From Actinomycetota bacterium (GTDB taxonomy: Bacteria; Actinomycetota; Thermoleophilia; Solirubrobacterales; 70-9), in assembly GCA_018268675.1 (NCBI GenBank), contig JAFDWB010000009.1, positions 1-64,000 of the forward strand: a stretch of 64,000 nt of DNA, in the 5' to 3' direction. The position numbers and the translations under genes were made by a program. This document shows positions 4,142 to 46,332 of this stretch, in pieces. The first letter of the stretch is position 1, and every line of letters begins with the position of its first letter. The notes below the pieces were generated by a model. It was given only the letters and a program-made list of their open reading frames with translations. It had not been told where the DNA came from and did no database searches.

Positions 4142-4188
4142 CCGCCCCCGACGCTTGTCCTCGATACGAAGACAAGCGTCGGGGGCGG
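4142..4188. repeat. Perfect 18-bp inverted repeat (hairpin) between convergent genes
   Basis: Arms 4142-4159 and 4171-4188 are perfectly complementary (18 bp, starting CCGCCCCCGACG) around the 11-base loop CTCGATACGAA. The element lies between the ferredoxin terminator and the 3' end of the convergent NlpC/P60 gene (stop at 4205). It carries no U-tract, so it may stop transcription coming from the minus strand, or block exonucleases, by structure alone. Confidence 0.75.
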
Positions 4189-4864: not shown

Positions 4865-4880
4865 TCACAACCTCCTCCGT

Positions 4881-4999
4881 GGGCCTGCGGGGTTAGCTGT
4901 CGGGCTGGCGCTGAAGGAGCCTGCGCTCCCACCGCGAGGTGGGTTCGCCCCAAAATCCTGGTTCCCCCGCTCCCGACCCTTCTGAGGCCGGGATTAGGC
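4881..4999 (-). promoter_or_regulatory. ydaO/yuaA-type c-di-AMP riboswitch
   Basis: Read on the minus strand, the leader of the NlpC/P60 gene carries the conserved blocks of the ydaO/yuaA riboswitch in order. These are GTCGGGAGCGGGGGAACC (complement of 4960-4977), GGGGCGAA (4944-4951), a variable stem, and the 3' signature GACAGCTAACCCCGCAGGC (4883-4901). The start and end of the aptamer pair through GCCT/AGGC-type ends. It stops 17 bases before the start codon, with the ribosome site in between, so control could act on transcription read-through or on translation. Known role: binding of c-di-AMP usually turns the downstream gene off. The call rests on the motif blocks; a covariance-model search was not run. 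Confidence 0.9.
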
Positions 5000-5082
5000 A
5001 TTTATTTGTAAGCGCTAACGCGCGGCCGACAGCATAGTTGCGGTCGCGGCCGGCCGCGTCGCGGATGGTCGCTTTGTGCGGG

Positions 5083-5149
5083 GGGCCGATCCGGGGTGAC
5101 CCGGCGGAACAAAAGCGGGAGGTTCCGGCGGGTCACCCCGGATCGGCCC
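5083..5149. repeat. Covarying hairpin element, copy 1
   Basis: A 67-base hairpin. The outer stem of 21 bp (5083-5103 with 5129-5149, starting GGGCCGATCC) is perfect. It is followed by one G-G mismatch, a 6-bp inner stem CGGAAC/GTTCCG and an 11-base loop AAAAGCGGGAG. The inner stem, mismatch and loop are shared with copies at 40248 and 45392, whereas the outer stem is locus-specific yet fully complementary. It lies 60 bases downstream of the mrp stop codon on the minus strand and upstream of the riboswitch leader. It could end or protect the mrp transcript. No U-tract is present. Confidence 0.85.
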
Positions 5150-5208: not shown

Positions 5209-6357
5209 CTACTGCACGACCGGCAGCGGGGTGCCACCGATCGCGGGCATCTCGGCCATCGCCGGGGTCGCCTGGAGCACCGGGAGCTCCTGCGGGGTCG
5301 AGGCGATGATCCCGCGGGCCGCCTGGCGGATCGCCTGGGCGGCGGGGGAGTCGGGTTCCGAGGTGACCAGGGGGGTGCCCTCGTCGGAGTGCTCGCGCAG
5401 CGGCTCGGAGAGGGGGACCTTGCCGAGCAGCGGCACGTCGAGCTCGTCGGCGAGCAGCTGGCCGCCGCCCTCGCCGAAGATCGTGAAGCGCTCGCCGTCG
5501 GGCGTGGTGAAGCCCGACATGTTCTCGATCACGCCGAGGATCTCGAGGTCGAATTTCTTCGCCATCTCGGCCCCCCGGTGGGCGACCGACTGGGCCGCCG
5601 GCTGCGGCGTGGTGACGACGATGAACTTCGCCTGCGGCAGGAGCTGGGCCAGCGTCATCGAGACGTCGCCGGTCCCCGGTGGCAGGTCGAGCAGCAGGTA
5701 CTCGAGTTCGTCCCAGGCCACGTCCTCGAGGAACTGCTGGATGGCCTTGTGGAGCATCGGCCCGCGCCAGACGACCGCGGCGTTCTCCTCGACGAAGAAG
5801 CCGATCGACATCACCTTGACCCCGCCGGCCGACTCCAGCGGCAGGATCTTCCGCTCCCCGTTCACCTCCGGTTTGGCGTTGACGCCGAGCATGCGGGGGA
5901 TCGAGTAGCCGTAGACGTCGCAGTCGAGGGCTCCGGACGGGTGCCCTTCCGCGGTCAGCGCCGCGGCCAGGTTGGCGGTCAGCGTCGACTTGCCGACGCC
6001 GCCCTTGCCCGAGGACACGCAGATCACGTTTTTGACCTTGGCGAGCGCGCCCTGCGGCAGCTTGCCCCGCCCCAGCGTCTGCTGGAGCTGCCCTTTCTCC
6101 TCGTCGGAGAGGACGTCGAAGCCGACCGCGACCTCGGTCACCCCCTCCAGCTCGCCGACGCGCTGGGTGACCGCTCCTTCGAAGTGGGAGCGGATCGGGC
6201 AGCCGGGGGTGGTCAGCGAGACCACCACCTCGACCCGTCCGCTGGGCTGGATCTCGATCGAGCGCACCATGCCGAGCTCGACGATCGAGCGGCGCAGCTC
6301 GGGGTCGATCACGCCCCGCAGCGCCTCGTTCACCTGGTCGTTCGTGGGAAGGCTCAT
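5209..6357 (-). CDS. mrp: Mrp/ApbC family P-loop ATPase, iron-sulfur carrier type
   Basis: A 382-residue cytosolic protein. Residues ~5-80 form the MIP18/DUF59 domain with its conserved TTPGCPIRSHFE cysteine. Residues ~108-350 form the ParA/MinD-like ATPase with the deviant Walker A SSGKGGVGKST (115-125), LDCDVYGYSIP, LLLDLPPGTGD and the family marks VVWRGPM and IENMSGF. Mrp proteins bind and hand over Fe-S clusters. The CxxC pair found after ENMS in E. coli-type Mrp is absent here (ENMSGFTTPDGERFTIFGEGGG-like segment has no cysteine), so cluster binding may rest on the DUF59 cysteine or be lost. The C-terminus has an extra Pro/Met-rich tail. Start ATG 6357; it is divergent from the secreted protein at 6484. 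Function assignment is good for the family, not for the exact role. Confidence 0.9.
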   Translation of the reverse strand: MSLPTNDQVNEALRGVIDPELRRSIVELGMVRSIEIQPSGRVEVVVSLTTPGCPIRSHFEGAVTQRVGELEGVTEVAVGFDVLSDEEKGQLQQTLGRGKLPQGALAKVKNVICVSSGKGGVGKSTLTANLAAALTAEGHPSGALDCDVYGYSIPRMLGVNAKPEVNGERKILPLESAGGVKVMSIGFFVEENAAVVWRGPMLHKAIQQFLEDVAWDELEYLLLDLPPGTGDVSMTLAQLLPQAKFIVVTTPQPAAQSVAHRGAEMAKKFDLEILGVIENMSGFTTPDGERFTIFGEGGGQLLADELDVPLLGKVPLSEPLREHSDEGTPLVTSEPDSPAAQAIRQAARGIIASTPQELPVLQATPAMAEMPAIGGTPLPVVQ

Positions 6358-8450: not shown

Positions 8451-8489
8451 GCTGTTCCTTTTGCCGACCTGCCCGGCAAAAGGAACAGC
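8451..8489. terminator. Perfect 16-bp hairpin between secreted-protein gene and cyclophilin gene
   Basis: Arms 8451-8466 and 8474-8489 (GCTGTTCCTTTTGCCG and its complement) enclose a 7-base loop. It starts 30 bases after the stop at 8421 and ends 14 bases before the next start at 8503. The right arm carries AAAA, the left TTTT, but no U-tract follows the stem. It probably limits read-through into the cyclophilin gene; alternatively it is a leader structure close to that gene's ribosome site. Confidence 0.6.
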
Positions 8490-38912: not shown

Positions 38913-40226
38913 GTGGGAGTGGTGAGGCAGGCGGGGGAGTGGGTCAACTGGGCGGGGGACCAGCGGTGCCGGCCGGCGCGGATCGTGGCGCCGCGCTCGC
39001 GCGAGGAGCTCGTCGAGGTGGTCGGCGCGACGGCGGCGGCCGGGGGGAAGGTGTCGGTCGCGGGGTCCGGGCATTCGTTCACCGAGGCGGCGATGACCGA
39101 CGGGACGATGGTGCGGCTGGACGCCCTCCGGGGCGTGCTCGAGGCCGACCGCGCGAGCGGCCTGGTGCGGGTCGGCGGCGGCACCGTGCTGCGGGAGCTG
39201 AACGACGAGGTGGCGGCGCTCGGGCTGGCGCTGGAGAACCTCGGCGACATCGACGCGCAGACGATCGCCGGGGCGATCTCGACCGGCACCCACGGGACCG
39301 GGGCGGGGTTCGGCAACATCTCGGCGCGGGTCGAGGGGGTCGAGCTGGTGCTCGGCGACGGCAGCGTGCGCGAGCTGGACGCGGCGGGCGAGGCGGAGCT
39401 GCTGCGGGCGGCGCGGATCGGGGTCGGGGCGCTGGGCGCGATCAGCGCGGTGACGCTCCGCTGCTTCCCCGCCTTCGTCCTCGAGCGGGTCGACGCGCCG
39501 CACCCCCGCGAGGAGGTCCTCGACCGCTTCGGGGAGCTCGCCGCCGCCAACGACCACTTCGAGCTCTTCACCTTCCCCTACTCCGACCGCGCCCTGGTGC
39601 TGGAGCGCAACCGGGTCGACTCGCCGCCCCGCCCGCGCGGGCGCGCCGCCGCCTTCCTCAACGACATCGTGCTGGAGAACTGGGCGCTCGAGGCGCTCGC
39701 GGCGACCGGCAAGGCGCTGCCCGCGGCGACCCCGGCGCTCGCCCGCCTCGCCGGGCGCCTCGCCGCGGGCGGCCGCACCGTCGACCGCAGCGACCGCGTC
39801 TTCGTCAACGAGCGCCGCGTCCGCTTCACCGAGATGGAGTACGCGGTGCCGCGCGAGCACGGCCCGACCACGGTCCGCCACGTGGTCGAGTGGGTGCGCG
39901 CCAACCGGTATCCGGTCTTCTTCCCGATCGAGGTGCGGGTGGCGGCGGGCGACGACGCCGACCTGAGCGCCGCCCACGAACGCCCCACCGCCTACGTCGC
40001 CGTCCACCAGTACCGCGGTATGGAGTGGCGCCCGTACTTCGAGGCGGTCGAGTCGATCATGGATGACTTCGGCGGCCGCCCCCACTGGGGGAAGCGCCAC
40101 TTCCAGACCGCCGCGACCCTGGCGCCACGGTACCCGCGGTGGAGCGCCTTCCAGAGAGCTCGGGATCAGCTGGACCCCGGGCGCGTCTTCACCAACGCGT
40201 ACGTGGAACGCGTGCTCGGTTCTTGA
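38913..40226 (+). CDS. FAD-linked sugar-1,4-lactone / alditol oxidase family protein
   Basis: 437 residues of the VAO/PCMH fold. FAD-binding part: RPARIVAPRSREELVEVV, then VAGSGHSFTEAA with the His that is covalently attached to FAD in this family, VRVGGGTVLRELNDEVAALG, DIDAQTIAGAISTGTHGTG and FGNISARVEGVELVLGDGS. C-terminal ALO domain: [39 protein letters not shown] and RARDQLDPGRVFTNAY, closing with the family's usual D-P-x-x-x-F-x-N. It oxidises a sugar lactone or polyol with O2 (L-gulono-, D-arabinono-lactone or alditol oxidase). The substrate cannot be told. GTG start. A covarying hairpin (40248) separates it from the convergent gene. Confidence 0.93.
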   Translation: MGVVRQAGEWVNWAGDQRCRPARIVAPRSREELVEVVGATAAAGGKVSVAGSGHSFTEAAMTDGTMVRLDALRGVLEADRASGLVRVGGGTVLRELNDEVAALGLALENLGDIDAQTIAGAISTGTHGTGAGFGNISARVEGVELVLGDGSVRELDAAGEAELLRAARIGVGALGAISAVTLRCFPAFVLERVDAPHPREEVLDRFGELAAANDHFELFTFPYSDRALVLERNRVDSPPRPRGRAAAFLNDIVLENWALEALAATGKALPAATPALARLAGRLAAGGRTVDRSDRVFVNERRVRFTEMEYAVPREHGPTTVRHVVEWVRANRYPVFFPIEVRVAAGDDADLSAAHERPTAYVAVHQYRGMEWRPYFEAVESIMDDFGGRPHWGKRHFQTAATLAPRYPRWSAFQRARDQLDPGRVFTNAYVERVLGS

Positions 40227-40247: not shown

Positions 40248-40318
40248 GCGGGACCTCGAGGGTGACCCGGCGGAACAAACAGCGGGGAGGTTCCGGCGGG
40301 TCACCCTCGAGGTCCCGC
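40248..40318. repeat. Covarying hairpin element, copy 2
   Basis: 71 bases: perfect 22-bp outer stem (40248-40269 with 40297-40318, starting GCGGGACCTC), one G-G mismatch, the conserved CGGAAC/GTTCCG inner stem and a 13-base loop AAACAGCGGGGAG (two bases longer than in copies 1 and 3). It fills the gap between two convergent genes, 21 bases after one stop and 9 bases from the other. A two-way terminator role fits this position. Confidence 0.85.
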
Positions 40319-40327
40319 TCGGCGCAC

Positions 40328-41539
40328 TCAGAGGAACGTCTTGCCCTCGCCACGATAGGTGGGCACGACGTCGACGATGCGGTCGCCTTCGATCAGGTGG
40401 AGGACCTCGAAGCGCTCGCACAGCTCGCCCGCCTTGGCGTGACGCATGTAGACGCGGTCACCGACCTGAAGGTCCGCCGCCGGGGCCCCGAGCAGGGGCG
40501 TCTGCACCTCGCCCGCGCCCTCCTCGGGATCGAGCTTCAGCCCCTCGGGCAGCCACGGCGAAGGGAGGCGCGCCTTGTCGCCCGCGCCCGAGGCGAGGTA
40601 GCCGCCGCCGAGCGCGGTCGCGATCTCAGGCGCGGGCTTGCGCACGATCGGCAGCGCGAAGCCGGCCGCCGGGGTCAGGCTGAAGCTCCCGTAGTGGTCG
40701 AAGAGGGTGGGGGCGTAGAAGCCGGAGCCCGCGGTCACCTCGGTCACCGCCGCCTCGGCGCCGGTCGTCTCGAGGCTGCCGGTGCCGCCGCCGTTCACCA
40801 CCTCGAGCTCGCAGAACTCGCTGATCGCGGCGACGATCGCGCCGCGCCGCTCGGCCAGCTCGGCCGCCGAGCGCCGCTGCATGAAGCGGATCGCCGCGCC
40901 GCGCAGGCGCCGCCCCGGCGGCCGGTCCGGCACGCCCGCGATCTGGCCCTCGTAGGCCATCAGCGCGTCGAGTTCGATCTGCGGGCGGCGTTCGATCTCG
41001 CGCGCCAGCGCCACCGCCTGTTCGACCGTGTGCACCGGGGAGCGCTTCGGCCCGATCTTCAGCCGGCCGCCGAGCGCCCACCAGCTCGCGTCGATGTCGA
41101 TGCAGACGCGGACCGGCGGCGCGTCGGCGCCGAGCACCGCCTCGATCGCCTCCAGGTGCCGGGCGCAGTCGACCATCACCAGCGGCGCGCGGCCGGGGTC
41201 GGCGGCGGAGCGCAGCGCCAGCTCCCGCAGCGCCGCGCTGTCGGCGGTCGGGTAGGCGAGGAGCAGGTCCTGGTGCCCGTGTTCGGCGAGCCAGAGGGTC
41301 TCCGGCAGCGTGTAGGTCATCAGCCCGGTGAAGCGCGCGTCCCGCCCGAGCACTTCCTCGATCAGCGCTCGGCAGCGGAGCGACTTCGTCGCTACCCGGA
41401 TCGGCTTGTCCCCCGCCCGCTCGAGCAGCGCCGCCGCGTTCGCCCACATCGCGTCCAGGTCGACGAAGGCGAACGGCGCCTCGACCTCGGCGAAGATCCG
41501 CTCGTAGCGCTCGTGCGACTGCTGCGGCGGGGAGGACAC
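40328..41539 (-). CDS. PLP-dependent alanine racemase-fold enzyme (amino acid deaminase/aldolase-like)
   Basis: 403 residues. The N-terminal alanine-racemase barrel begins FAFVDLDAMWANA and has the PLP-lysine in PIRVATKSLRCRALIE. GLMTYTLPETLWLAEHG, VCIDIDASWWALGGRLKIGP and ALMAYEGQIAGV are typical of the D-threonine aldolase / D-serine dehydratase group. The C-terminal domain carries RVYMRHAKAGELCERFEVLH, where the His (and in relatives a Cys) ligates a metal next to the active site. These enzymes act on D-3-hydroxy amino acids. GTG 41539 is used; a TTG at 41572 would extend it. It converges on the oxidase gene across the hairpin. Exact substrate unknown. Confidence 0.88.
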   Translation of the reverse strand: MSSPPQQSHERYERIFAEVEAPFAFVDLDAMWANAAALLERAGDKPIRVATKSLRCRALIEEVLGRDARFTGLMTYTLPETLWLAEHGHQDLLLAYPTADSAALRELALRSAADPGRAPLVMVDCARHLEAIEAVLGADAPPVRVCIDIDASWWALGGRLKIGPKRSPVHTVEQAVALAREIERRPQIELDALMAYEGQIAGVPDRPPGRRLRGAAIRFMQRRSAAELAERRGAIVAAISEFCELEVVNGGGTGSLETTGAEAAVTEVTAGSGFYAPTLFDHYGSFSLTPAAGFALPIVRKPAPEIATALGGGYLASGAGDKARLPSPWLPEGLKLDPEEGAGEVQTPLLGAPAADLQVGDRVYMRHAKAGELCERFEVLHLIEGDRIVDVVPTYRGEGKTFL

Positions 41540-41619
41540 CGGCCCCACCCTATCCCCGCGCTCCCCGCCCAATACCTACAATCGGTCCTCGCGGATCGGG
41601 ATCCCGGCCCGCGATGCGC

Positions 41620-41708
41620 GGAGAGGTGGCCGAGTGGCTGAAGGCACTCGCCTGCTAAGCGAGTAGGGGGCGCAAGCTCTCTCGAGGGTTCGAATCCCTC
41701 CCTCTCCG
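41620..41708 (+). tRNA. tRNA-Ser (anticodon GCT)
   Basis: Acceptor arms GGAGAGG / CCTCTCC with discriminator G, D-arm GGCCGAGTGGCTGAAGGC, anticodon loop CTGCTAA (GCT), a long variable arm (GTAGGGGGCGCAAGCTCTCTC) and T-loop GGGTTCGAATCCC. It is 89 bases long without encoded CCA. This isoacceptor reads AGC/AGU codons. Confidence 0.96.
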
Positions 41709-41811
41709 TTTGCGGGGATTTGAGGGTGCCTCACTTCCCTGCGTCCTTGCGAGGCTGGCTCAAATCCGCGCAAACCCTGCGGGGTTGCATTGATGACGCG
41801 CGGGGCCGCGC

Positions 41812-43272: not shown

Positions 43273-43455
43273 CGCGGAGAAGGTTGCATAGAACCATGTC
43301 ACGGTCAACCGGAGTCATCTCACACACGGGGGTGGGCTGGCGGGGGCGGGAAGGGACGGGAGCGGTGCGCAGGACGGCAAGGGACAAGGGACGTGGGGGT
43401 GGCGGGGGGACGGCGAGGGATGCGGGGATGGCAAAGGACGCGAGGCGGCTGCGAG

Positions 43456-43511
43456 AGCCGCGGATGCCGGTCCGACCCGGGCTGGCTGAGGTCGGCCCGG
43501 CATCCGCGGCT
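43456..43511. repeat. 22-bp hairpin upstream of the P450 gene
   Basis: Arms 43456-43477 and 43490-43511 (starting AGCCGCGGATGCCGG) pair at 21 of 22 positions around a 12-base loop. It is the first of three strong hairpins in the ~600-base gap between the P450 gene and the pyruvate kinase gene. No coding sequence is convincing in this gap. Confidence 0.75.
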
Positions 43512-43587
43512 CCTGGGAGGTGGGGAGCAGTGACGGAAGGCGGGAGAAGTCACGCTTCCGTGCGTGGGCGCCCCACGCCCACCCAGG

Positions 43588-43636
43588 GTTGACGGGCCGA
43601 AAACCCGTCACATGGTCCGGTTTTCGGCCCATCAAC
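43588..43636. repeat. 49-bp palindromic repeat, copy B
   Basis: Arms 43588-43605 and 43619-43636 (17 of 18 paired) around a 13-base loop. This is the inverted copy of the element at 657-705, matching it at 46 of 49 positions. Both a stem base and two loop bases differ. The shared flank TGGGCGTGGGG is found upstream of this copy on the minus strand. Confidence 0.85.
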
Positions 43637-43731
43637 CTGGACCGGCCACGGAAGACGCACCGAAGCCACGTACTTCGTCACGAGCTCCCGCGCGTGGGCC
43701 TCGAACCCCGTCCCCATCCTGAAAACCACCT

Positions 43732-43829
43732 GACGGTTGGTGAGTTGGCCACACCCCGCAGGGGTCAACTGACCAACCGTCCCGGGCGCCAGCCCGAGGC
43801 GCCAGCAATCCGGGCGCCAGCCCGAGGCG
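43732..43829. repeat. 19-bp hairpin followed by a 20-base direct repeat
   Basis: GACGGTTGGTGAGTTGGCC (43732-43750) pairs with 43763-43781 at 17 of 19 positions around a 12-base loop. Immediately after, the 20-base unit CCGGGCGCCAGCCCGAGGCG occurs twice, at 43782-43801 and 43810-43829. Each unit itself contains GGGCGCC-type dyads. The segment ends ~90 bases before the pyruvate kinase start and could be part of its leader. Confidence 0.7.
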
Positions 43830-43920: not shown

Positions 43921-45372
43921 ATGACGCTCTATCCGCTCGCCAGGCCCAGCGCCCACCTCGACCGGCGCACCAAGATCATCGCCACCGTCGGCCCCGCGTC
44001 GTGGGACCGGGGGGTGCTCGAGCAGCTGATCGCGGCGGGCGCCGACGTGTTCCGGCTGAACTTCTCCCACGCCGGCCCTGAGAAACAGGCGCAGACGATC
44101 GCCACGATCCGCGCCGCGGCCGAGGCGCTCGGGCGCGAGGTGGCGATCCTCGGCGACCTCCCCGGCCCAAAGCTCCGCATCGGCAACATCCGCGACGACT
44201 ACGCCGAGCTCGAGACCGGCATGCACGTCACCCTCACGCCGCGCCCGGTCGAGGGCGACCGCGAGACGATCCCGGTCTCCTGGTCGGGCGTCACCGGTCT
44301 GCAGGAGAACCAGCTCGTCTACCTCGCCGACGGGGCGATCCGCCTGCGGGTCGGCACGCTCGACCGCGAGGGAGTCGACTGCGAGGTCGAGGTCGGCGGC
44401 ACCCTCTCCTCGCACAAGGGGATGAACATCCCCGGCGGCGCCGCCGAACTCCCCGCCGCGACCGAGACCGACCTCGACTGGGTCGACTTCGCGGTCCGCG
44501 AGGGGATCGACCTGCTCGCGGTCTCCTTCGTCTCCTCCGCCGCCGACCTGCGCCCGGTCGAGGAGCGCCTTCGCACGCTCGGCTCCGACATCCCGCTGAT
44601 CGCGAAGATCGAGCGCCAGCAGGCGGCCGCCAACGTCGAGGAGATCGCCGCCGCGGCGACCAGCGGCATCATGGTGGCGCGCGGCGACCTCGGCATCGAA
44701 GTGCCGCTGGCCGAGGTGCCGGTCCTGCAGAAGCGCCTGATCCGCACCGCCGGGCGCCTCTCCAAGCCGGTCGTCACCGCGACCCAGATGCTCGCCTCGA
44801 TGGTGACCGCGCGCCGGCCGACCCGCGCCGAGGTGACCGACGTCGCCAACGCGATCTACGACGGCACCGACGCGATCATGCTCTCCGAGGAGACCGCGGT
44901 CGGCGACAACCCGGTCGAGGCGGTGCGCGTGATGGACCGCATCGCCCGGGCCACCGAGCCCGATCTGCGCTACGGCGAGTGGCTCTTCTCGCGCACCGAC
45001 CAGGCGAGTCAGGAGGTCGCCGACTCGGTCGCCCAGAGCGCGGTCGGCGCGGTCTACCGGCTCGGCCTGAAGGCGCTCGTGGTGCCGACGACGAGCGGCC
45101 GCACCGCCCGCATCGTCTCCGCCCACCGGCCGAACGTGCCGGTGCTGGCGATCTCGCCGCGCCTCGAGACGGTGCGCCGCCTCAACCTCCTCTTCGGTGT
45201 CACCGCGGTCCAGTCGAAGCCGGAGGAGGACATCCGCGGGCTGCTCGAGGACTGCGCGGCGATCGCCGCCAAGCATGGGGTGGCGCACTCCGGGGAGCTG
45301 ATCGGGATCACGGCGGGGCTGCCTGACCAGGAACTGGGGACGAATCTCTTCGAGGTGCATCGGGTGCCTTGA
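43921..45372 (+). CDS. pyk: Pyruvate kinase
   Basis: 483 residues. This glycolytic enzyme turns phosphoenolpyruvate and ADP into pyruvate and ATP. Landmarks: RRTKIIATVGPASWD near the start, FRLNFSHAGPEKQ, LGDLPGPKLRIGNI, IPLIAKIERQQAAANVEEI (catalytic Lys), GIMVARGDLGIEVPL (metal-binding Glu/Asp loop), VVTATQMLASMVTARRPTRAEVTDVANAI and the C-terminal allosteric domain with VPTTSGRTARIVSAHRPNVP. Full length. ATG 43921 is used; GTG 43903 would add six residues. Glu is encoded by GAG throughout, in contrast to the exported-protein operon. Transcription probably ends at the hairpin at 45392. Confidence 0.97.
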   Translation: MTLYPLARPSAHLDRRTKIIATVGPASWDRGVLEQLIAAGADVFRLNFSHAGPEKQAQTIATIRAAAEALGREVAILGDLPGPKLRIGNIRDDYAELETGMHVTLTPRPVEGDRETIPVSWSGVTGLQENQLVYLADGAIRLRVGTLDREGVDCEVEVGGTLSSHKGMNIPGGAAELPAATETDLDWVDFAVREGIDLLAVSFVSSAADLRPVEERLRTLGSDIPLIAKIERQQAAANVEEIAAAATSGIMVARGDLGIEVPLAEVPVLQKRLIRTAGRLSKPVVTATQMLASMVTARRPTRAEVTDVANAIYDGTDAIMLSEETAVGDNPVEAVRVMDRIARATEPDLRYGEWLFSRTDQASQEVADSVAQSAVGAVYRLGLKALVVPTTSGRTARIVSAHRPNVPVLAISPRLETVRRLNLLFGVTAVQSKPEEDIRGLLEDCAAIAAKHGVAHSGELIGITAGLPDQELGTNLFEVHRVP

Positions 45373-45391: not shown

Positions 45392-45458
45392 GGACCGTCC
45401 GGGGAAGCCCCGGCGGAACAAAAGCGGGAGGTTCCGGCGGGGCTTCCCCGGACGGTCC
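45392..45458. repeat. Covarying hairpin element, copy 3
   Basis: 67 bases: perfect 21-bp outer stem (45392-45412 with 45438-45458, starting GGACCGTCCG), one G-G mismatch, inner stem CGGAAC/GTTCCG and loop AAAAGCGGGAG, identical in core to copy 1. It lies 19 bases after the pyruvate kinase stop, before the enoyl-CoA hydratase gene on the same strand, where a terminator is expected. Confidence 0.86.
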
Positions 45459-45540: not shown

Positions 45541-46332
45541 ATGAGTGAGGGTGGGGGGGTCGTTCGGGTCGAGGTGGATGCTTCGGGGCTCGCGGTGCTC
45601 ACGCTCGACAGCCCGCCGCTGAACCTCTTCGACCGGGCGATGATCGACGACCTTGGCGCCGCGGTCGAGGCGCTGGTGGCGGCGCCGCCTCGGGCGGTCC
45701 TTATAAGGGCGGCCGGCCGCGCGGTCTCGGCGGGGGTCGACGTCAACGTCTTCGACGGGCTCACGTCGGCGGGCGCGACCGAGCTCTGGACCGGGCTCCT
45801 GCAGATGATCGACGCGCTCGAAGAGCTGCCCGCGCCGGTCGTCTTCGCCGCCCACGCGCTCACCCTCACCGCCGCCTTCGAGGTGGCGCTCGCCTGCGAC
45901 CTGATCGTCGCCGCGCCCGGGGCGAAGTTCGGCCTGGTCGAGAAGGTGGTCGGGCTGACGCCATCGATGGGCGGCACGCAGCGGCTCGCCGAGCGGGCGG
46001 GCTCCGGGCGGGCGCGCCAGTTCGTGATGAGCGGGGAGCTCTTCGAGGCGGTCGAGCTGGAGCGCTGGGGCGTCGTCAACGAGATCTACCCGGAGGCGGA
46101 GTTCGAGGCGCGCTCGCGGGCGCTCGCCGCGGGCCTCGCCGCCGGCCCGACCCGCGCCCACGCGATGACGAAGCGCATCCTCCGCCGCTTCCGCGAAGGC
46201 GGCATCCCGGCCGCCGACGAGGCGGTGCGGACCGAGGCGGTCGAGCTCTTCGCGACCGAGGACCTGCAGGGCGCAGTGCGCGCCTTCCTCGAGCACGGCG
46301 GCCCCGGGCACGCGGAGTTCCACGGCCGGTAG
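45541..46332 (+). CDS. Enoyl-CoA hydratase/isomerase (crotonase) family protein
   Basis: 263 residues of the crotonase fold: LAVLTLDSPPLNLFDRAMID, LIRAAGRAVSAGVDVNVFDG (first oxyanion-hole segment), AFEVALACDLIVAAPGAKFG, LVEKVVGLTPSMGGTQRLAE, and RARQFVMSGELFEAVELERWGVVNEI. Both acidic positions used in hydratases are present (Glu of AFEVALACD and Glu of FGLVEKV). The second oxyanion-hole element normally G-G-G before the first Glu reads L-T-A-A-F, so activity may be altered. It likely works in fatty-acid breakdown or a related CoA pathway, and a thioesterase-like gene follows 22 bases later, suggesting one operon with it. Confidence 0.88.
   Translation: MSEGGGVVRVEVDASGLAVLTLDSPPLNLFDRAMIDDLGAAVEALVAAPPRAVLIRAAGRAVSAGVDVNVFDGLTSAGATELWTGLLQMIDALEELPAPVVFAAHALTLTAAFEVALACDLIVAAPGAKFGLVEKVVGLTPSMGGTQRLAERAGSGRARQFVMSGELFEAVELERWGVVNEIYPEAEFEARSRALAAGLAAGPTRAHAMTKRILRRFREGGIPAADEAVRTEAVELFATEDLQGAVRAFLEHGGPGHAEFHGR

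Follow-up and report, generated by a model that had tools for sequence, protein, structure and literature searches.

Three hairpins in the window, by which we mean the whole stretch of 64,000 nucleotides analyzed here (contig JAFDWB010000009.1, from an actinobacterium of the Solirubrobacterales), are probably copies of a miniature non-autonomous mobile palindrome that is defined by a 12-nt loop and whose arms are homogenized by template switching. The family to which these hairpins (copies 1, 2, and 3) belong consists of dispersed palindromes of about 56-77 bp. Its hallmark is the loop AACAGCGGGGAG on a long GC-rich stem, and every stem is variable.

Architecture of the three hairpins

Copy 1 lies at 5083..5149 (+), with outer arms at 5083-5103/5129-5149, a G-G mismatch at 5104/5128, an inner stem at 5105-5110/5122-5127, and the loop AAAAGCGGGAG at 5111-5121. 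The same architecture was found in copy 2, at 40248..40318 (+) (arms 40248-40269/40297-40318, G-G mismatch 40270/40296, inner stem 40271-40276/40290-40295, loop AAACAGCGGGGAG at 40277-40289), and in copy 3, at 45392..45458 (+) (arms 45392-45412/45438-45458, G-G mismatch 45413/45437, inner stem 45414-45419/45431-45436, loop 45420-45430, again AAAAGCGGGAG). All three are of type I, with the inner stem CGGAAC/GTTCCG and one G-G mismatch each; their outer stems measure 21, 22, and 21 bp and their loops 11, 13, and 11 nt, respectively. Inspection of the sequence thus confirmed the elements and the architecture given in an earlier account made from the letters of the window alone (the sequence-only reading). 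The core pattern CCGGCGGAACN{8,16}GTTCCGGCGGG was matched exactly three times in the window and not once in 100 shuffles. RNA folding gave z-scores of -9.7, -10.8, and -8.8 for copies 1, 2, and 3, and none of the three hairpins matched Rfam above the gathering score.

The outer stems had also been said to differ beyond a shared CCCG. This holds for the outermost ~10-12 bp but not for the middle of the stem, where copies 1 and 2 have GGGTGACCCG in common. Type I copies across the genome share a semi-conserved stem middle of about CCGGGGG-AGACYCG, and true locus-specificity is limited to that outermost part.

Size and distribution of the family

The core GGCGGAACN{6,20}GTTCCGGC was matched 12 times in the 4.2-Mb genome, versus 0 for a reversed control pattern. 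A covariance-model scan of this genome and its relatives, as proposed in the sequence-only reading, showed the family to be real, with members in the relatives and, in this genome, 14 type I copies and about 20 of type II, in which the same loop sits on a different inner stem (e.g. ..CCCCCTCTCTCACGAACAGCGGGGAGGTTCGTTCGGGGG..). Two more copies were recognized on reading about 850 kb of contigs, which brings the total to at least 36 on the basis of that reading and the hits of one model, a non-exhaustive inventory. A total of only three copies, or occurrence at chance level, had been named as findings that would speak against a family; neither was observed, given this total and the lack of any match in the shuffles or to the reversed pattern. 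Chance hairpins were likewise ruled out, with 0 expected and with contig C95 containing 32 hairpins of stem score ≥15 as against 0 in a Markov control.

The assemblies used are fragmented, and the named relatives are metagenome-assembled genomes. Model hits at E ≤ 0.01 were obtained in 12/12 genomes of the genus; the two hits in G005 lack the loop, leaving true members in 11/12. Among 50 genomes of the taxonomic family, hits at E ≤ 0.001 were confined to 11/12 members of the genus and 2/3 genomes of one other genus, in which the loop is identical and both inner and outer stems are different. When 84,980 species genomes were scanned with a loop-plus-stem string, matches were found only on contigs named Solirubrobacterales or Actinomycetota bacterium. 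Even the inner stem differs between species, each time with compensating changes (GGAAC/GTTCC, GGAC/GTCC, GGGC/GCCC, GAGC/GCTC), and AACAGCGGGGAG(G) is kept. Carriage by phages or plasmids was ruled out, copy 1 being without a match; eight pattern matches on viral contigs (L129-L136) have the loop motif without a surrounding stem and were therefore attributed to chance.

Co-change of the arms and inversion of the loop

The outer stems of 96 elements were 98.1% Watson-Crick over 1728 pairs, which bears out the proposal of a family with a conserved core and with arms that are complementary though different between loci. The 33 non-Watson-Crick pairs comprised 14 A-C, 8 G-T, and 11 others; G-T mismatches were not in excess over A-C, contrary to what would be expected if selection acted on an RNA strand, where G-U should be spared. 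In an alignment of 12 type I copies, two-sided changes were present in 16 pairs (shuffle mean 10.7) and 58 cells (17 in shuffles). In 12 alignable orthologous comparisons covering 231 pairs, both sides had changed in 21 pairs and one side in 14, where arms evolving independently at the divergence of the flanks would give 2.6 and 68; these comparisons are partly non-independent and were chosen for alignability, with a hairpin detectable in both species, so that the ratio is biased upward. The compensated changes include transversions.

The loop can be inverted between orthologous hairpins. At PrmA, the arms of G000 and G003 are nearly equal (20/21 pairs), and one core reads AACAGCGGGGAG where the other has the reverse complement of that sequence. 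An inverted loop within similar arms was also found at CysRS (cysteinyl-tRNA synthetase) between G006 and G004, and loop orientation differs between species at CopCD and other sites. Arm homogenization together with spacer inversion is the documented outcome when a polymerase switches template from one inverted repeat to the other (PMC8604942), and from this signature we infer that template switching has acted on the hairpins. Selection on structure and rewriting of one arm from the other had been left as alternatives by the sequence-only reading. Rewriting is the better supported, because there is no G-T excess over A-C, transversions are compensated, and the core is inverted inside nearly unchanged arms; selection on structure may still contribute.

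Gain and copying of whole hairpins

A clean case of gain was observed in cofE: G001 and G002 have the hairpin there, and in eight aligned relatives the site is empty; the cofE gene of G004 is also too short to hold a hairpin. The net in-frame insert is 63 nt for hairpins of 63-65 nt, with no target duplication evident at this one site. At the CysRS site, 10/11 readable genomes of the genus have the hairpin, and the site is empty in G005 as well as outside the genus. Within this genome, the unrelated loci C62:4439 and C21:30565 have an identical outer arm (20/20) between flanks of chance identity, which indicates that whole hairpins are copied and that locus-specific stems come from later divergence. 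The earlier argument that a copied repeat would carry the same outer stem at every locus accordingly fails, since whole hairpins are copied, as seen from these arms and from the filled and empty cofE sites, and diverge afterward. Identical outer stems elsewhere had in turn been taken as the mark of a plain mobile repeat; their presence at two unrelated loci supports copying of the whole element, yet the arms also change together.

Copying of the outer arm from the target site was considered on account of an 8-nt match to the G008 site at the spacer behind the D-arabinono-1,4-lactone oxidase-type gene (ALO spacer) and was rejected, as the clean cofE site gave it no support. Where G000 has a second element in the Lhr helicase gene, G009 has a hairpin without the AACAGCGGGGAG loop (L137); unrelated hairpins are drawn to insertion sites. 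In G009, cofE (L270/L274) is split over two contigs, of which C6 ends in a G/C run of low complexity near the G002 hairpin site. Such low-complexity sites may break assemblies.

Placement within and between genes

Placement was determined for the 96 copies with a simple codon-usage gene caller made for this analysis. Coding DNA makes up 87% of the sequence; 59/96 copies are outside open reading frames (ORFs) and 37/96 are inside. The latter are in frame, frequently with one site occupied in many species, and their hosts include CysRS, Lhr helicase, PrmA, an MMPL transporter, a radical-SAM CofH-type enzyme, CopCD, an FAD/Fe-S oxidase, and CofE. Not all of the 37 are in mid-protein; a few occupy gene junctions (L050, between cytidylate kinase and EngA) or C-terminal ends (L045 and L052, close to the stop). 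Comparison with solved structures identified true insertions: residues 170-199 of Lhr replace three residues of its relative 5v9x, and residues 150-166 of CofE have no counterpart in a solved relative. Judged from a reading of the peptides, every one of the six frames of the hairpin, three sense and three antisense, is used.

Between genes, 43/53 copies lie within 30 nt after a stop codon. Divergent spacers, which are 24% of all spacers, contain only three copies, all at one orthologous locus. A run of at least five T in 8 nt followed 0/74 hairpin ends, and a T-run terminator was thus ruled out. At one conserved arrangement (L009 at G000:C91:120106 and 120657; L167 in G003), two type I hairpins lie in opposite orientation ~550 nt apart, with an ORF of ~120 amino acids and unknown function called between them in G000.

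A model for the family and its alternatives

The probable history of copies 1-3 as a mobile palindrome with homogenized arms can be set out as a series of steps. A whole hairpin is gained at a new place, as the cofE insertion and the identical outer arms show, and copies are seen just past stop codons or, in frame, within protein loops; those elsewhere would be purged. After insertion the stem changes with both arms together, and the loop can invert while the arms stay, as the orthologous comparisons show. DNA-polymerase template switching between the arms at replication would keep the stem perfect and make it locus-specific. The loop may be kept as the recognition tag of a putative trans-acting mobilizing enzyme or host factor. 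Translation through a hairpin inside a gene would add about 20-25 residues to the protein, in whichever of the six frames the hairpin had landed. It is conceivable, though somewhat doubtful, that the family has identity only in its 12-nt loop, with a self-templated stem, a loop that flips, and tolerance of any of six frames, and that its mover is unlike known hairpin transposases.

Several observations weigh against this model. One-sided changes are not rare, so that compensated changes are not nearly exclusive (14/35 changes in the alignable orthologues are one-sided). Copies in tandem spacers favor the purine loop on the sense strand (24/34, p = 0.02), which suggests a strand-specific role or bias. 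No movement was seen within a species, and no mobilizing enzyme was found, Y1 transposases being absent and no autonomous partner having been sought beyond Y1. At old sites, CysRS among them, the loop is still conserved, and this would not be expected of inert copies.

Three other explanations were considered. Different copies might have inserted repeatedly and independently at hot spots, in place of one insertion with co-evolving arms. One spacer or protein loop does host unrelated hairpin families according to species (ALO spacer; second Lhr site), and many orthologous stems are no closer than paralogous ones. The pairs at PrmA (G000/G003) and CysRS (G006/G004) are nevertheless far closer than paralogues, yet have inverted loops or compensated changes, as do the similarly alike CopCD hairpins of three species, and repeated insertion is considered unlikely. 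A structured RNA element (a terminator, 3' stabilizer, or protein-binding hairpin) selected for pairing and loop, and maintained by ordinary compensatory mutation, would fit the very stable folds, the strong covariation and conserved loop, the position past stop codons with rarity in divergent spacers, and the strand bias in tandem spacers. It is difficult to reconcile with the 37 copies inside ORFs, with loops inverted at orthologous sites, with G-T not being preferred to A-C, with hairpin ends that lack T-runs, with copies missing at orthologous 3' ends, and with the lack of an Rfam match, and we regard it as improbable.

If instead a host protein bound the hairpin or a cruciform, selection at the level of DNA could keep the arms of both strands complementary and the loop constant in either orientation. 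Indifference between G-T and A-C, tolerance of inversion, and conservation of the loop in two genera are all consistent with such a site; its patchiness at orthologous loci, the many lineage-specific copies, and the placement within enzyme genes, which is hard to explain, make it the most improbable of the explanations considered. A mobile palindrome whose arms are rewritten by template switching is preferred.

Comparison with known systems

Rickettsia and Wolbachia palindromic elements (RPE and WPE) occur between genes and also in frame within conserved protein-coding genes, where orthologues share the position (PMC2229807, PMC3767692). As described in later papers and reviews, RPE are 100-150 bp long and encode a conserved peptide (PMC10969869), and their repeat identity is reported to be lost over time (PMC6649704). 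The present family shares the habit of a palindrome that settles both between genes and, in frame, within conserved ones. By contrast, its members, at 56-77 bp, are about half as long, encode no constant peptide but use three sense and three antisense frames, have nearly perfect arms with the loop as the constant part, and reside in a high-GC actinobacterium. The family therefore resembles RPE in habit and is not filed with them on grounds of length, the lack of a constant peptide, and the kept arms.

Like the repetitive extragenic palindromes (REP) and mosaic elements (BIME) associated with RAYT, the hairpins are dispersed and GC-rich in a bacterial chromosome. Unlike in REP, the conserved part is the loop and not a tag at the foot, and more than a third of the copies (37/96) are inside ORFs, whereas REP are extragenic. 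A Y1 (RAYT-type) transposase was found in 0/12 genus genomes, with control genomes positive, and REP/RAYT was ruled out accordingly. Miniature inverted-repeat transposable elements (MITEs) are similarly small, dispersed, and palindromic and likewise carry no enzyme gene; in the present family it is the outer ends that vary. Integron attC sites, in which the conserved boxes are outer, were dropped for that reason.

Perfect inverted repeats within genes are also known from nematomorph mitochondria, where arm homogenization by template switching has been proposed (PMC6649704). There the arms encode conserved parts of proteins and form no dispersed family, in contrast to the hairpins described here, which are inserted additions and have a constant loop. 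Template switching at inverted repeats (quasi-palindrome correction) produces arm homogenization and spacer inversion (PMC8604942), matched here by co-changing arms and a flipping loop; it is a mutational process and not an element, and here it would act on a mobile family.

In the searchable (open-access) literature, Rickettsia and Wolbachia are the principal cases for which frequent in-frame palindrome insertion in conserved enzymes is described. If a second lineage, unrelated to these, shares that habit, palindromes would be a recurrent route of protein insertion. The orthologous series, in which one gene in ten species has different perfect stems and flipped loops, provides a record from nature of how arms are rewritten in bacteria and allows the rate of rewriting to be measured, and the conserved loop offers a bait for the enzyme that moves or binds the hairpin.

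Host loci in the window and other hairpins

Copy 1 lies 60 nt past the stop of a minus-strand gene for an Mrp/ApbC-type P-loop NTPase (5209..6357 (-)), which is upstream of copy 1. Copy 2 is flanked by convergent genes, the D-arabinono-1,4-lactone oxidase-type gene (38919..40226 (+)) to its left and an alanine-racemase-domain gene (40328..41548 (-)) to its right. Copy 3 starts 20 nt past the stop of the pyruvate kinase gene (43921..45372 (+)), with an enoyl-CoA hydratase-type gene (45541..46332 (+)) to its right. In the relatives, the Mrp locus is without a copy of the 12-nt-loop family, G006 having a hairpin of another family there; the place 3' of pyruvate kinase has no hairpin in any relative found; and in the ALO spacer copy 2 is missing or replaced by other hairpin families. 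Judged by this absence at the same loci, copies 1-3 look recent.

Other dispersed hairpin families are present in the window at 657-705, 4142-4188, 8451-8489, 43455-43512, 43587-43637, and 43732-43781. They have conserved stems (e.g. GTTGATGGGCCGAAAACC..., CCCCCGACGCTTGTC..., GCTGTTCCTTTTGCCG...) and recur many times over contigs C82, C91, and C95, almost all between genes. Some of their loops on these contigs of G000 (ACAGCCTGCCAG, ACAGCCCGCCAG, AACAGCCGGAGC) resemble the type I loop AACAGCGGGGAG in one orientation, and by this likeness of sequence they may form one loop-defined superfamily with the 12-nt-loop family.

A c-di-AMP riboswitch (RF00379, 82.5 bits) was identified at 4867-5010 (-), between copy 1 and a downstream minus-strand gene of 219 amino acids that is without a Pfam match. 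An imperfect hairpin at 41708-41775, right behind a tRNA (41620-41708), is possibly the terminator of that tRNA.
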